Source of the DNA: Actinomadura craniellae
Lineage (GTDB): Bacteria; Actinomycetota; Actinomycetes; Streptosporangiales; Streptosporangiaceae
Direction of reading: 5' to 3'
Length of the DNA: 64,000 bases
Assembly: GCF_003289645.1 (NCBI RefSeq)
Contig: NZ_QLYX01000012.1
Coordinates: forward strand, 124,001-188,000
Shown in pieces: positions 55,541-62,257 of this stretch; the first letter of the stretch is position 1; the number at the start of each line of letters is the position of its first letter. A program made the position numbers and the translations under genes. The notes beneath the pieces were generated by a model. That model was not told where the DNA came from. It saw nothing but the letters and a program-made list of their open reading frames with translations, and made no database searches.

Positions 55541-55870
55541 ATGGCATTGTTCGCCGTGCTGGCGACGCAGGCACCGACCGGGATCAGCGCGGATGAGTTC
55601 CGGCGCCGACTGCCCGAGGGATTCGCCTACACCCGGAACCTGGTCGACAAGGGCATCATCAAGCACAACTGGATCCGCGTCGGGGCGTCGGGGGGCCTGC
55701 TCATCTACGACGTCGAGTCGCACGAGCGGCTCAACACCCTGCTGTACGAGAACCCGATCAGCCCGCACCTCAGGTTCGAGGTCATTCCGCTGGCCGTGGT
55801 CGGCGGCTTCGACCCGAGGGCCTTCGAAAATACCGCAAACACCGAAAACACCGCGGGCGAGCCCGAATAG
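55541..55870 (+). CDS. Muconolactone-isomerase-like protein
   Basis: A 109-residue ferredoxin-fold protein resembling muconolactone delta-isomerase (MFAVLATQAPTGIS-like start, HNWIRVGASGGLLIYDVESHERLNTLL). In catabolism the family moves a double bond in a lactone; in a biosynthetic cluster it may act as a small isomerase or cyclase. The tail (FENTANTENTAGEPE) is low complexity. ATG at 55541 follows AGGAGGAG. It is divergent from rmlB and convergent with the Rieske-less oxygenase. Confidence 0.75.
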   Translation: MALFAVLATQAPTGISADEFRRRLPEGFAYTRNLVDKGIIKHNWIRVGASGGLLIYDVESHERLNTLLYENPISPHLRFEVIPLAVVGGFDPRAFENTANTENTAGEPE

Positions 55871-55877
55871 CCCGCCC

Positions 55878-56858
55878 TCACTCGCCGAGCATGGCCACCG
55901 CGAGGCTCCGGTAGAAGGCCAGGACCCCGGGCTCCTTGGGGCTGAGGTGGCCACGCCCGGCGAACCGCGCCCCGGCGCACCGCTGGACGGCCTCCATGCC
56001 CGCCCGGTCCTCGTCGTTGACCACGGCCGCCCCCTCCTCGCTCTCCGCGCGCAGGGCCGCGCGGTCCGCGCCCTCGACCATCGCGGCCGGTAGGAGCGCC
56101 CCGCCGCGCACCTGGGTGCGGTCGGCGGTCAGCGGGATCAGGCTGATCCAGATGACCGAGTCCCCGAAGGCCGCGACGCTGCCGCAGGGGAAGACGCAGC
56201 AGTTGTACATGTTGGCCTTGTACTCGTCGTCGAGCGCGAGCACCACCGGTTCCATCGGCTCCCGGAACGGGCTGAGCAGGCGGGTCACCCAGCGCGAGTC
56301 GGCGCGCACCGCCATGTCGGCGCCGGGCGGCGTGAGGAGCGCCACGGTGTTCGGGTGCAGCCCCATGGCGTGGTAGTTCTCGTGCGCGTTCTGCACGGCC
56401 AGCTTCCAGTTGCAGCGCCATTCCTCCAGCCAGCCGCCGACCTGGACCATCTCGTCCAGCCGGTGGCCGGCCAGCTCCGCCCCGACCCGCGCCAGGTGCG
56501 GGGCCAGCGGTTCGGCGCCGGCGTCGAGGTTCACGAACACCAGCCCGTTCCACTGCTCGACCCGGGGTGCCGGCCGGCGGCGGCCGGGCGGCGTTCCGCG
56601 CAGCGCGCCGTCGTCGCCGCGGACGACCTCCACCGGCTCGCCCGCCACCGACAGCGCCACCCGGGACCCGGGGGCGGCGAGCTCGTCGGCGTGCGCCACC
56701 AGCACCCACGACCGCCCGAACACCCGGGCCCGTTCCAGCTCCCACAGCTCCGCCGAGACGAACGCCCTCGGCGGCAGGCTCAGCGCGGGCGCGCCGGGTT
56801 CGCGGTAACGTCCCAGCTCCGCCAGGAGCGCCGAGGTCTCCGCGGTCATGATCGTCAT
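55878..56858 (-). CDS. Ring-hydroxylating oxygenase paralogue lacking the Rieske domain
   Basis: A 326-residue relative of the Rieske oxygenase at 61109 that aligns along its length (FVSAELWELERARVFGRSWV; RTQVRGGALLPAAMVEGADR; FAGRGHLSPKEPGVL). About 50 residues are missing: between residues 84 and 105 only RGTPPGRRRPAPRVEQ remains where the paralogue has the CxH...CxxH cluster. The mononuclear iron histidines in NAHENYHAMGLHP are kept. It cannot receive electrons by its own Rieske centre, so it is either inactive, a partner subunit or an enzyme with another chemistry. The ATG overlaps the stop of the glycosyltransferase upstream (ATGA) and follows GAGGAA. Confidence 0.85.
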   Translation of the reverse strand: MTIMTAETSALLAELGRYREPGAPALSLPPRAFVSAELWELERARVFGRSWVLVAHADELAAPGSRVALSVAGEPVEVVRGDDGALRGTPPGRRRPAPRVEQWNGLVFVNLDAGAEPLAPHLARVGAELAGHRLDEMVQVGGWLEEWRCNWKLAVQNAHENYHAMGLHPNTVALLTPPGADMAVRADSRWVTRLLSPFREPMEPVVLALDDEYKANMYNCCVFPCGSVAAFGDSVIWISLIPLTADRTQVRGGALLPAAMVEGADRAALRAESEEGAAVVNDEDRAGMEAVQRCAGARFAGRGHLSPKEPGVLAFYRSLAVAMLGE

Positions 56859-58135
56859 GTTTCCTCGCGATGTGCGGCGGTCAGTTTCTCGATGGCCGGG
56901 ACGGCGTCGTTCGGCGGGTCCATGGCCAGGATCTCCTGCCGCAGCCGCCGCGCGTTCTCGGTGAAGGACGGCTCGGTCAGCACCCGCACGACCTTCTCGC
57001 GGAACAGTTCGGCGCTGAACTCGCGCAGCGGGATGGCCAGCAGCGTGCCCTGCTCCTCGTAGGCGTGGCCCATGGCCTCGGAGACCCACTCCCAGCCGGT
57101 GAGGACGACCTGCGGGACGCCGTGGAACTCCCCGGTGGCCTTGGTCTGGTAACCGGCGTGGTGGATCACGAGAGCGCAGGTGGGCAGCAGGTCGTTCATC
57201 GGTACGAAGTCCACGACGCGGACGTTCTCTCCGAGCTCGGGGAGGTGCTCGCGCTGCTCGGCGGCGATCGCCGCGACGACCTCGACGTCCAGTTCCGCCA
57301 GCGTCCGCAACATCGCGGCGAGCAGGGAGCCGAGGTCCCACAGCCGGTACTCGTCGGTGATGCTCACCCCGAGGGTGAGGCAGACGCGGGGCCTGGCCGG
57401 CGGTTCGCGCAGCCAGCGCGGGACGACGCTGCGGCCGTTGTAGGGGAGGTACCGCACCGGCACGGTCTCCAGGCCGAGGTCCTCGCGCTGGCTCGGCGGC
57501 CTGGTGTCGATCGTGAACTGGCCGGTCAGCATCGTCTCGTCGAACCGGCGCGCGGACCCCAGCCGCTCCAGCGTCCAGTCCAGCCACTCGGCGGTGGGGT
57601 CCTCGCGGTGCTCGGGCTCCTGCTCCAGCGCCCGCCGGAGGAAGTGCCGCCTGGTGGTGATCTGCATGGCCTGCTCGGGCCCGGAGACCAGGCGGGCGTG
57701 GGCCGCGCCCACGGCCACCGCGGCCACCGCCCCGGCGATGCACAGGGTCTCCCAGATCACCAGGTCCGGCCGCCAGGCGCGGGCCAGACCGACCAGCTCG
57801 TCGATCATTTCGTCGGAGTTCAGCGGCATGTTGAGCGCCGGGGTGATGATGGTCTCGTAGGCCAGGTGGTCTTCCCAGCTCTCCTCGGCCTCGTCGACCC
57901 CCGTCGTGTCGAGCGTGTTGTAGTAGGCGATCGCCTCGTGGTGGAACTCGCCGAGCAGCTCGTGCCACGGCGGGCACTCGATCGGCTCGGCGGCCAGCCC
58001 CGCCCGGGTGACGGTCTCCACCAGTTCGGGCTTGCAGGCCGTCCTGACCTCGTGGCCGGCGGTCCGCAGCGCCCAGGCCATCGGCACCAGCAGCTGGAAA
58101 TGGCTGCCTTCGAGCGAGGTGATCAGGATTCTCAT
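56855..58135 (-). CDS. EryCIII-like glycosyltransferase with altered donor loop
   Basis: A 426-residue glycosyltransferase of the EryCIII/DesVII group (SHFQLLVPMAWALRTAGHE, WRPDLVIWETL, GQFTIDTRPPS, REPPARPRVCLTLGVS). The donor-binding loop reads HHAGYQTKATGEFHGVPQ, whereas relatives in this cluster have HxGG/SGxGT; the glycine and GT are changed. It may use an unusual sugar donor or be weak. It is the middle gene of a leftward operon: methyltransferase, glycosyltransferase, dioxygenase, this gene, Rieske-less oxygenase. Confidence 0.86.
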   Translation of the reverse strand: MRILITSLEGSHFQLLVPMAWALRTAGHEVRTACKPELVETVTRAGLAAEPIECPPWHELLGEFHHEAIAYYNTLDTTGVDEAEESWEDHLAYETIITPALNMPLNSDEMIDELVGLARAWRPDLVIWETLCIAGAVAAVAVGAAHARLVSGPEQAMQITTRRHFLRRALEQEPEHREDPTAEWLDWTLERLGSARRFDETMLTGQFTIDTRPPSQREDLGLETVPVRYLPYNGRSVVPRWLREPPARPRVCLTLGVSITDEYRLWDLGSLLAAMLRTLAELDVEVVAAIAAEQREHLPELGENVRVVDFVPMNDLLPTCALVIHHAGYQTKATGEFHGVPQVVLTGWEWVSEAMGHAYEEQGTLLAIPLREFSAELFREKVVRVLTEPSFTENARRLRQEILAMDPPNDAVPAIEKLTAAHREET

Positions 58136-58142
58136 CCTGACC

Positions 58143-58946
58143 TCAGGCCGGGCGGATGAGCGGGAACTTCTCGCCCGCGACCGGCTCTCCCGGCCGCAGG
58201 TGCGCGACGGGATGGTCCTGGACCCCCGGGCGGTAGGTGGCGTCGGCGTCCATGTAGACGACGCCGTAGGCCAGGCGCCGTTCGGAGTCGGTGTTGACCC
58301 CGGCCAGGTGGACGGTGCGGAAGTGGTGGAAGATGACGTCGCCCGCCCGGGCCGGGACGGTGACCCGCGGCGCGTACGGGAAGTCCGGCCAGACCTCCTC
58401 CATGGGCCGGTAGTGCTCGAAGCCCGCCAGGTGCACCTGCCGCTCGGTCTCCGGGCGCAGGTGCGAGCCGGGAACGTAGATGAGGCTGCCGCGGTCCGCC
58501 GGGACGTCGACCAGCGGGGTCCAGGCCGTCAGCGTCCGGGACAGGCCCGCCAGCGGGAGGCCCGGCTCGTCGTCGTGGATGACGGTCGGCAGGTGCACGT
58601 GCGGGTCCTTCTTCAGCACGTCGGTGCCGTAGAGGCGCAGCGGCCCGCCGGAGAGCCGCTCGGCGATCTCCGTGATCACCGGGTGCAGGGCGAGCCGGCG
58701 CAGGTCCGGGTGCTTGAGCCAGGCCGCCTCGACGTAGTGGACCTGGGTCTCCTCCGCCGAGGCGCCCCAGATCTCCGGGCCCTCCTTGTCCAGCAGTTCC
58801 TCCGCGGCCGCCCGGAAGGTCGCCACCTCCTCCGGGGAGAGGACCTGGGGGAGGTGGACGAACCCCCGGTCGTGGTAACTGCGGACGGTCTCGTCGGTCA
58901 GGGATTCGGCCGTGGTCGGGTCGCCGAGGGCCACCATGTCGCTCAT
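58143..58946 (-). CDS. Phytanoyl-CoA dioxygenase (PhyH)-like Fe(II)/2-oxoglutarate enzyme
   Basis: A 267-residue Fe(II)/2-oxoglutarate oxygenase. The metal triad is likely HDD in TVIHDDEPG plus the distal histidine in TVHLAGVN, and the arginine in ERRLAYGV binds 2-oxoglutarate. GSLIYVPGSHL is typical of PhyH proteins. In antibiotic clusters (for example SnoK of nogalamycin) relatives make C-C bonds or epimerise sugars rather than hydroxylate fatty acids. It lies seven bases before the glycosyltransferase at 58135. ATG at 58946; one three codons later (58937) is possible. Confidence 0.84.
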   Translation of the reverse strand: MSDMVALGDPTTAESLTDETVRSYHDRGFVHLPQVLSPEEVATFRAAAEELLDKEGPEIWGASAEETQVHYVEAAWLKHPDLRRLALHPVITEIAERLSGGPLRLYGTDVLKKDPHVHLPTVIHDDEPGLPLAGLSRTLTAWTPLVDVPADRGSLIYVPGSHLRPETERQVHLAGFEHYRPMEEVWPDFPYAPRVTVPARAGDVIFHHFRTVHLAGVNTDSERRLAYGVVYMDADATYRPGVQDHPVAHLRPGEPVAGEKFPLIRPA

Positions 58947-59013: not shown

Positions 59014-60162
59014 TCAGCGGGCCAGGCCGGCCAGCCGGGCCACCAGGTCGGCCGGGGCCGGCATCGACAGCAGCTCGTCGCGCGCCTGCCGGGCCGCGTC
59101 CCGCAGCGCCTCGTCCTTGAGCAGGGTCTGGCATTCGGTGACCCCCACCGACTCGGGCTCGGAGACGATCCCGATGCCGCGGCGGGGTAGCAGGTCACCG
59201 CCGGTCTGCTGGTAGGAGCCGCGCGGCAGCACGCACTGCGGTATGCCGGCGGCCACCGCGGTCATCGTCGTCCCGCTGCCGCCGTGGTGGATGACGGCCG
59301 AGCAGGTCTCCAGCAGGACGTCGAGCGGGGCCCACTCCACGATGCGGACGTTGGGCGGCAGTTCGCCCAGCAGCGCGGCGTCGCCGCCGCCGAGTGTGAC
59401 CGCGAACTCCGCGTCCACCCCGCCGGCCGCCGCCAGCAGCGGGGCCAGCATCGCGATGCCGCCCCACTGGGCCTCGATGGTGCCGAGGGTGACCGCGATC
59501 CGCGGCTTCTCGGCCGGCCGCAGCAGCCAGTCGGGCAGGACGGCCCCGCCGTTGTAGGGCACGTACCGCATCGGCCAGGCGCCGGGCGAGCGCCGCTGCT
59601 CGGGCAGCAGCGCCTGGAAGCTGGGCGGGAACATCGTGATCTGCGCCCGCGCCCGCGGCTCGCCGGTGACGCCGTGCCGGTCGTAGTGCGCGGCCATGGC
59701 GGCGCGGACCGTCTCGGCGAGCCGCGCGCCGCTGTCGTAGGAGCCGAGCCTGAGCTCGACGTGCGGCAGGTTCAGCGCGGCCGCGACGAGCGGCCCCGCC
59801 CCCTGGAGCGGCGGGGAGATGACCAGGTCGGGAGACCAGGACCGGGCCGCCGCGAGCGTGCCGTCGACCATGACCCCCGAGACCCGGCCGAACAGCTTGG
59901 CCAGGGCGAGGTCGTCGGGGTCGTCGGCGAACATCGGGTTGGCGGCATCGGCCTCGCCGTCCGCCTCGTCGGGCATGTAGACCTTCAGGTAGTCCAGCCC
60001 GGGCGTGACGTCCATGACGTCCAGCCCGGCGTCCGAGACGGCCAGGCTTAGCCCGCCCGTCGCGTAGCGGACCTCGTGCCCCGCCGCGCGGAGCGCCTGT
60101 GCCAGCGGCACGGTCGGAAAGAGATGGCCGAGCCCGGGAGAGGTGACGAACAGTGCACGCAT
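59014..60162 (-). CDS. GT1-type glycosyltransferase (CalG/UGT-like)
   Basis: A 382-residue glycosyltransferase, shorter and more distant than the three EryCIII-like ones. It begins RALFVTSPGLGHLFPTVPLAQALRAAGHE and has RYVPYNGGAVLPDWL and the canonical donor loop HHGGSGTTMTAVAAGIPQ. Such enzymes need no P450-like activator. Cluster context suggests attachment of a deoxysugar to the aglycone. ATG at 60162 follows GGTGGGG. It follows the methyltransferase by 92 bases. Confidence 0.87.
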   Translation of the reverse strand: MRALFVTSPGLGHLFPTVPLAQALRAAGHEVRYATGGLSLAVSDAGLDVMDVTPGLDYLKVYMPDEADGEADAANPMFADDPDDLALAKLFGRVSGVMVDGTLAAARSWSPDLVISPPLQGAGPLVAAALNLPHVELRLGSYDSGARLAETVRAAMAAHYDRHGVTGEPRARAQITMFPPSFQALLPEQRRSPGAWPMRYVPYNGGAVLPDWLLRPAEKPRIAVTLGTIEAQWGGIAMLAPLLAAAGGVDAEFAVTLGGGDAALLGELPPNVRIVEWAPLDVLLETCSAVIHHGGSGTTMTAVAAGIPQCVLPRGSYQQTGGDLLPRRGIGIVSEPESVGVTECQTLLKDEALRDAARQARDELLSMPAPADLVARLAGLAR

Positions 60163-60254
60163 GATTGCCCCACCAAAAAGACGCCTTGGTTCCGACACCG
60201 CGTCACCGTGCCAGGCGGCCCTCTCACCGGGATCGACGGACGCTGGAGACCCGG

Positions 60255-60968
60255 TCACCGCCGGGCACCGACGAACAGCCCGCGGCCGGAGTGCAGGCCC
60301 GCGACGTACTCCACGGCGAACCCGGCGGCGTCGAAGGCCGCCTCGTACTGCGCCCGGGTGTACAGCCTGATGAGGTGCGTCTCGGCGAAGTGCCGCGCGC
60401 CCGACCGCGCATCGGCGACGACGTAGTGCACGTTCATCCGGGAGGCGTCGCCCTCGCGGGTCGAGTGGGAGACCCGGGCGACGGTCCGCTCGTCCACGGT
60501 CGTCACGTCGGCGGACACGTATCCGTCGAGGTAGGTCTCGGAGAACCACCAGGGGTCGATGGCGACGACCCCGCCGGCCGCCAGGTGCCGCGCGAACCCG
60601 CGCAGCGTCGACTCCAGCTCGGTGACGCCGGCGGTGTAACCGATCGACCCGAACATGCAGGTGATCACGTCGAAGGTCCGGCCGAGGTCGAAGGCGCGCA
60701 TGTCACCGGCGTTGACCGTGACGCCGGGCAGCCGCCCGCGCGCCGCCTCGACCATCGGGTCCGACAGTTCGAGCCCTTCCACATGGTCGAACAGCCCGGC
60801 GAAGTGCCGCAGGTGCGCGCCGGTGCCGCAGGCGACGTCCAGCAGCGACCGGGCCCCGGGCAGCAGGGATCGCGCCCGCCGGGCGATCTCCTCGGTCTCG
60901 GCCTGGTAGTCCTTGCCGCGGCCCTGGTGGATCAGTTCGTAGATCTCGGTGATTTCGGTGCCGTACAT
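60255..60968 (-). CDS. TDP-aminosugar N,N-dimethyltransferase (DesVI/TylM1-like)
   Basis: A 237-residue SAM-dependent methyltransferase. The start MYGTEITEIYELIHQGRGKDY, the SAM motif LLDVACGTGAHLRHFAG and WWFSETYLDGYV, followed by RVSHSTREGDASRM, closely follow the DesVI/TylM1/EryCVI group that dimethylates the 3-amino group of TDP-deoxysugars. The family length fits the start at 60968, although no ribosome site is seen there; a longer form from 61040 has no conserved residues. It predicts a dimethylaminosugar on the product. The aminotransferase needed is outside the window. Confidence 0.89.
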   Translation of the reverse strand: MYGTEITEIYELIHQGRGKDYQAETEEIARRARSLLPGARSLLDVACGTGAHLRHFAGLFDHVEGLELSDPMVEAARGRLPGVTVNAGDMRAFDLGRTFDVITCMFGSIGYTAGVTELESTLRGFARHLAAGGVVAIDPWWFSETYLDGYVSADVTTVDERTVARVSHSTREGDASRMNVHYVVADARSGARHFAETHLIRLYTRAQYEAAFDAAGFAVEYVAGLHSGRGLFVGARR

Positions 60969-61108: not shown

Positions 61109-62257
61109 ATGACCGCTGCGGACACTTCGGCGCTGCTGGACGAGCTGGGGGACTACCTGCGGGAGGACGCGCCGGCGCTGAGCCTGCCGCCGGAGGCGTT
61201 CGTGTCGCCGGAGCTGTGGGAGCTGGAGCGGACGCGGGTGTTCGGGCGGTCGTGGGTGCTGGTGGCGCACGCCGACGAGCTGGCCGAGCCGGGCTCGTAC
61301 GTGGCCCTGTCGGTGGCCGGTGAACCGGTGGTGGTGACCCGGGACCGCGACGGCGAGCTGCACGCGCTGTCCCCGATCTGCCGGCACCGGATGATGCCGG
61401 TGGTGGAGGAGGGGTCCGGCCGCGCCGACTCGTTCACCTGCCCGTACCACCTGTGGCGGTACGGGCTGGACGGGCGGCTGATCGGGGCCACGTTCATGAA
61501 GGGCAACCCCGACTTCGACCCGAAGACCTGCCGTCTGCCGCGGTTCGCGGTGGCGCAGTGGCAGGGGTTCGTGCATGTCAACCTGGATGCCGGCGCCGAG
61601 CCGCTGGCTCCGCACCTGGCGCGGGTCGGCGAGGACCTGGCCAACTACCGGCTGGACGAGATGGTGCAGGTCGGCGGCTGGGTCGAGGAGTGGAACTGCA
61701 ACTGGAAGGTCGCCGTCGAGAACGCCCACGAGAACTACCACGTCCTGGGCTTCCACCCGGAGACCCTGCAACCGTCCACCCCCGGCGGGGCCGAGACGTC
61801 GGTGCGGGCCGACTCGCCCTGGGCGAACATCATGCGCGTCCGCTACACCGAGCCCCTGGAGGCGGCGATCCTGCCGCTCACCGAGGAGGAGAAGGCGCAT
61901 CTGTACGCCTTCTTCGTCTTCCCGTCCGGCAGCCTCGCGGCCTCCGGTGAGATGGTGGTCTGGCTCAGCCTCATCCCGCAGTCCATCGACCGCACCCAGG
62001 TGCGCGGCGGCGTGCTCATGCCCGCCGCGCTGATCGAGGGCGCCGATCGGGACACGATCCGCAAGGAGAGCGAGGGCTACGCCGCCATGATCAACGCCGA
62101 GGACCGGCACGGGCTGGAGGCCGTGCAGCGCTCGGTGGGCTCGCGGTTCGCCGGCCGCGGCCACCTCAGCCCCAAGGAGCCGGGCGTGCTGCTCTTCTAC
62201 CAGAACCTGGCGCGGGCCCTGCTGCGCGAGGACGGGGCGTGGCCCGGCCAGCTCTGA
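61109..62257 (+). CDS. Rieske-type ring-hydroxylating oxygenase, alpha subunit
   Basis: A 382-residue Rieske non-heme iron oxygenase. The [2Fe-2S] cluster ligands are C91, H93 and C111, H114 (CRH, then CPYH). The mononuclear iron histidines are in NAHENYHVLGFHP, with glutamate in place of the usual bridging aspartate. It would hydroxylate or otherwise oxidise the scaffold, or a sugar, using an external reductase not found here. ATG at 61109 follows GAGGGGA. It is divergent from the methyltransferase operon, and its paralogue at 55878 lacks the cluster. Confidence 0.9.
   Translation: MTAADTSALLDELGDYLREDAPALSLPPEAFVSPELWELERTRVFGRSWVLVAHADELAEPGSYVALSVAGEPVVVTRDRDGELHALSPICRHRMMPVVEEGSGRADSFTCPYHLWRYGLDGRLIGATFMKGNPDFDPKTCRLPRFAVAQWQGFVHVNLDAGAEPLAPHLARVGEDLANYRLDEMVQVGGWVEEWNCNWKVAVENAHENYHVLGFHPETLQPSTPGGAETSVRADSPWANIMRVRYTEPLEAAILPLTEEEKAHLYAFFVFPSGSLAASGEMVVWLSLIPQSIDRTQVRGGVLMPAALIEGADRDTIRKESEGYAAMINAEDRHGLEAVQRSVGSRFAGRGHLSPKEPGVLLFYQNLARALLREDGAWPGQL

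Follow-up and report, generated by a model that had tools for sequence, protein, structure and literature searches.

Two paralogous genes for ring-hydroxylating oxygenase (RHO) α-subunits lie in one block within the window, i.e. the 64,000-nucleotide stretch of Actinomadura craniellae contig NZ_QLYX01000012.1 that was analysed here (Table 1). The block sits in an antibiotic-type, type II polyketide gene cluster encoding a ketosynthase pair, an ACP, cyclases, a SnoaL-like protein, TylF and a MycE-like methyltransferase, a berberine-bridge type oxidase, deoxysugar genes and at least eight EryCIII-like glycosyltransferases. As a type II polyketide synthase is combined with many glycosyltransferases, sugar-type O-methyltransferases and an acyl-CoA-dehydrogenase-like enzyme, the gene content points to a heavily glycosylated aromatic polyketide as the probable product. 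Three similar glycosyltransferase genes are found close together at L017 12584-17630 (G000:C4, about 200.6-205.6 kb).

Table 1. Features of the RHO block; positions refer to the window unless a locus is named.
Feature	Position	Strand	Evidence
Rieske-less RHO α-subunit paralogue, 326 aa	55878..56858	(-)	PF00848 match without PF00355; six further orthologues
Short linker in place of the 50-residue cluster-binding subdomain	56565..56600	(-)	~residues 87-98, alignment
Putative bridging Glu160 and iron ligands His163, His168	56355..56381	(-)	Invariant; placed by alignment of the intact paralogue to CntA
Putative iron ligand Asp284	56007..56009	(-)	Invariant; ED motif of the intact paralogue aligns to that of CntA
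Intact RHO α-subunit paralogue, 382 aa, proposed electron-donating partner	61109..62257	(+)	PF00355 and PF00848; in all seven clusters
Rieske ligand stretch C91xH93...C111xxH114 of the intact paralogue	61379..61450	(+)	Alignment
Glycosyltransferase GT2 of the activator-dependent family, upstream of the Rieske-less gene and coupled to it by ATGA	56855..58135	(-)	TIGR04516, 541.6 bits; ATGA context conserved
PhyH-type Fe/2-oxoglutarate oxygenase, same syntenic block	58143..58946	(-)	Profile match and synteny
Glycosyltransferase GT3 of the syntenic block	59014..60171	(-)	Profile match and synteny
Methyltransferase, divergently oriented next to the intact RHO	60255..60968	(-)	Profile match and synteny
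Small protein of the MIase family (PF02426), next to the Rieske-less gene and convergent with it	55541..55870	(+)	Profile match and synteny
Activator-like protein between PhyH and GT2	L042 8781, L043 8946, L044 8670, L045 10086, L046 8208, L072 9640		

One of the two RHO genes starts with ATG and is open over its full length, and its product matched the Pfam family Ring_hydroxyl_A (PF00848, 1e-19) but not the Rieske domain (PF00355), whereas the intact paralogue matched both. Pairwise alignment of the two proteins gave 66% identity and a single gap of 50 residues that spans the CRHR...CPYH stretch of the intact protein, in agreement with the proposal of the first-pass annotation that about 50 residues carrying CxH and CxxH had been lost in frame. 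Counted from the conserved SW..H motif to the tryptophan behind the gap, nearly all intact proteins span 102 residues and two span 103, as compared with 52 in the Rieske-less protein of the window and 53 in those measured from the Streptomycetaceae. A short linker does replace the missing part, as had been described, yet it extends over residues ~87-98 rather than 84-105, conserved sequence being back by W103. In most intact genes a CRH and a CRLP stretch are exactly 50 codons apart, so that a deletion between these short similar CR-x-x codon stretches is a plausible origin of the gap.

Outside the gap, the parts required for a mononuclear iron site appear to be complete. The intact paralogue, whose best sequence relative in the PDB is the carnitine monooxygenase CntA, aligns to CntA around the iron-site motifs, and transfer of this alignment to the Rieske-less protein suggests that it has the 2-His-1-carboxylate iron ligands, including H163 and H168, the two histidines already named as retained, and in addition D284. 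Likewise, E160, the putative bridging carboxylate toward the Rieske cluster of a neighbouring subunit, is present. At the level of sequence all four residues are invariant in the seven Rieske-less proteins, their seven paired intact proteins and three intact A-type proteins (see below for types A and B). The Rieske motif CxH...CxxH, on the other hand, is absent from all seven Rieske-less proteins. As this motif is the defining feature and its lack bars membership, the protein is a catalytic-domain paralogue derived from a Rieske oxygenase that is itself not filed as one.

We then predicted the structure of the Rieske-less protein with AF2, using 14 sequences (mean pLDDT 74.4, pTM 0.79; an earlier model from 10 sequences had a pLDDT of 45 and was set aside). 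The model matched RHO structures over its whole length, although residues 162-181 and 197-217 were poorly predicted, the best match being the α3 RHO CntA (6y8j, 6zgp) with a Z score of 27.0 and an rmsd of 3.3 Å over 290 residues. Together with the PF00848 match this suggests that the catalytic-domain fold is kept; in CntA, however, every chain has both metal centres, unlike in the Rieske-less protein. Strands were predicted at residues 52-56, 66-71, 74-80 and 86-89 and, past the linker, at 99-103 and 106-110, corresponding to a leftover Rieske base. According to the model only the cluster-binding part of the Rieske domain is missing while its basal β-sheet persists on both sides of the gap, and the earlier view of a cleanly removed domain holds for the cluster-binding subdomain but not for the domain as a whole.

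To find the same pair of genes elsewhere we searched ~1,500 genomes, some of them more than once. Rieske-less and intact RHO genes occurred together in seven genomes from three genera, including that of the window, the other six belonging to the Streptomycetaceae. A contig scan yielded Streptomyces sp. C10-9-1, Streptomyces sp. Root1304 and S. pseudovenezuelae, and genome searches added three further orthologues (G947, G836, G1141). In all seven genomes the intact paralogue is located 5-7 kb from the Rieske-less gene in the same block, with the shared order GT1, RmlD/RmlB, MIase, Rieske-less RHO, GT2, PhyH, GT3, methyltransferase, intact RHO, where RmlB or MIase was missed by the simple gene caller in some clusters. 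The reported ATGA overlap with the glycosyltransferase gene is real (56855-56858), and every Rieske-less gene (7/7) starts with ATGA at the end of GT2.

An unrooted tree, calculated with no outgroup, divided the RHO proteins between two sides, A and B (support 97/94), the seven Rieske-less proteins forming one clade within A (99/95); the branching order among the A-type sequences is not fixed by this tree, and a distant outgroup gave no help. The A side also takes in the truncated L052 and three intact proteins, L003, L051 and L054. For two of these intact ones, L003 and L051, the A-type gene adjoins GT2, PhyH, GT3 and RmlB, which is the same position as that of the Rieske-less gene, and a genome search detected no B-type RHO in either genome. 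Hence, in these data, A-type RHOs that have no B-type companion are intact, and those that have one are Rieske-less. Orthologues carrying the cluster, whose existence the first-pass annotation would have counted against its reading, thus do occur, namely in L003 and L051, but only in clusters lacking a second RHO, so that they polarise the change as a loss and leave the reading standing.

The cluster-binding subdomain was lost once, in a lineage having a B-type RHO in the same biosynthetic cluster. Being a single loss, its co-occurrence with B amounts to one event plus inheritance instead of seven independent events, and as an argument it is strong on conservation but weak as independent replication. 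Moreover, since the cluster is conserved as a block, the co-occurrence of A and B could reflect the shared pathway only. One further genome, G209 (L052/L053/L071), was left out of the count as contig ends truncate its A-type gene within the stretch that matters here. Both its A-type and its B-type RHO gene break at contig ends, two of which share an exact 127-bp stretch, and the assembly contains no A-type Rieske region; G209 could be an intermediate.

Sequence comparison among the Streptomycetaceae indicates that the Rieske-less gene is under constraint. Pairwise dN/dS (Nei-Gojobori with Jukes-Cantor correction) was about 0.21-0.38 for the Rieske-less genes versus 0.10-0.19 for the intact ones. 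Mean pairwise identity over residues 140-326 was 86.1% for the Rieske-less proteins versus 90.7% for the intact partners, and over the remnant Rieske base (residues 31-86) 70.1% versus 85.2%. The leftover base is thus relaxed, the catalytic region being nearly as conserved as that of the intact partner, and the constraint is strongest on the catalytic part. Purifying selection and the coupling to the glycosyltransferase gene, conserved across the orthologues, support the view that the gene is still maintained.

In Rieske oxygenases electrons cross between subunits, from the cluster of one to the iron of its neighbour, over about 12 Å via a conserved carboxylate (PMC12445004). A cluster-less subunit could therefore still be served by a neighbour, which predicts that its bridging Glu is kept. 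That paralogous RHO α subunits co-assemble is known from NdmA and NdmB, which form an α3-α′3 heterohexamer (PMC12445004, PMC10380055); both of these keep their Rieske clusters, however, whereas the Rieske-less protein has none. We consider it likely that the Rieske-less protein makes up the catalytic half of a hetero-oligomeric Rieske-type oxygenase and is fed by the cluster of the intact B paralogue, which has kept the ligands for both its Rieske cluster and its iron. A mixed oligomer with this paralogue is the best-supported mechanism because the intact partner is present in the same cluster in every genome with a Rieske-less gene and because the putative bridging residue is invariant. It counts against this reading that the examined part of the cluster yielded neither a reductase nor a ferredoxin.

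The data show that an A-type RHO gene, intact where it is the sole RHO, lost the cluster-binding subdomain once beside an intact B-type RHO, its product retaining the ligands of the mononuclear iron site and the bridging glutamate. From these features we infer complex formation, the electron route and the substrate as follows. A would assemble with B into mixed rings, in which the [2Fe-2S] cluster of a B subunit would hand electrons to the iron of the adjacent A subunit, and A would oxidise a substrate of its own, this step probably taking place on the glycosylated type II polyketide. It is quite possible, though short of probable, that the pair is an obligate mixed oxygenase with two paralogous active sites of different chemistry but one kind of Rieske donor, the cluster of A having been outsourced to B so that there are fewer clusters than active sites.

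The nearest precedents are NdmC and the two-chain chlorophyllide a oxygenase of Micromonas (MpCAO). NdmC, part of the caffeine N7-demethylase NdmCDE of Pseudomonas putida CBB5, is an RHO-type non-heme iron monooxygenase that lacks a Rieske cluster and receives its electrons in trans (PMC4408171, PMC10380055), and the protein studied here resembles it in being a Rieske-less RHO catalytic chain. NdmC requires NdmE, however, and its donor is an extra Rieske cluster that forms a fusion with the reductase NdmD, while the cluster in the window has no extra Rieske gene and, unlike the NdmC system, possesses a complete RHO paralogue. MpCAO is reported to be a Rieske oxygenase carried on two polypeptide chains (PMC9615114), and a Rieske-less chain fits such a split enzyme; the partner here differs in keeping both its own Rieske and its own iron ligands. 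In neither precedent is a complete oxygenase paralogue known to be the apparent donor.

An NdmC-like arrangement, in which a different Rieske protein or a ferredoxin encoded elsewhere, and not B, supplies the electrons, is nevertheless unlikely. NdmC does work in this way, using the extra Rieske cluster of NdmD (PMC4408171), and further Rieske proteins are encoded in the window genome. PF00355, however, detected no Rieske domain in the cluster other than that of the intact RHO, whereas all seven clusters include an intact B-type gene; on the contig this profile matched only the intact RHO and one RHO about 70 kb away, a neighbouring reductase with an extra Rieske cluster of the NdmC type not being found. 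We regard it as quite unlikely that A is a non-catalytic partner, i.e. a structural or regulatory subunit shaping the oligomer or the substrate channel of B: its own electron-carrying part is gone with the cluster and the remnant base is kept as expected for a packing scaffold, but a scaffold would need neither the iron ligands nor the bridging Glu, all of which are invariant.

A non-oxidative role is less likely as well. The iron site, kept without a built-in electron donor, might belong to an oxygen- or Rieske-independent enzyme that carries out a different reaction alone, such as a lyase or isomerase step, and 20 positions are indeed fixed differently in the Rieske-less proteins than in the B-type ones. 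Most of these positions agree with the intact A-type proteins, however, and thus mark type A, not a new function, and the bridging Glu is kept, rendering such an enzyme decidedly improbable. A decaying pseudogene or an assembly error is very improbable: the simple origin by deletion between short similar stretches would suit either, yet the gene is kept in seven genomes with the ATGA start context in all of them and under purifying selection. A missing segment due to assembly or sequencing error was ruled out by the same deletion in seven orthologues, and loss by decay by the conserved coupling together with purifying selection.

If the mixed A/B oligomer is real, it would be a natural example of an oxygenase whose active sites outnumber its clusters, apparently made and kept across distant actinobacteria. 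It would bear on whether an active site must have a cluster on its own chain and on how many clusters a ring needs, questions that normally call for engineered mixed trimers. The A/B pair would be a ready test of inter-subunit electron transfer, with the intact single-gene A-type orthologues as ancestral-type control. In annotation, Rieske-less subunits risk being written off as broken genes. The open-licence literature yielded nothing relevant on Rieske-less subunits or on Rieske enzymes encoded in type II polyketide clusters.

The small MIase-family protein is 80-85% identical in five Streptomycetaceae clusters, exceeding the other genes of the block, and may be a functional partner. A plasmid collection contained distant RHOs only, and nine IMG/VR contigs classed as viral (L074-L082) carry near-identical RHO genes with intact Rieske motifs. 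Finally, the Streptomycetaceae clusters encode a protein between PhyH and GT2 that is 26-32% identical to the P450-derived glycosyltransferase activator; the window has no activator at this position, its activator (TIGR04515) being located further along at L017 17732-18997.
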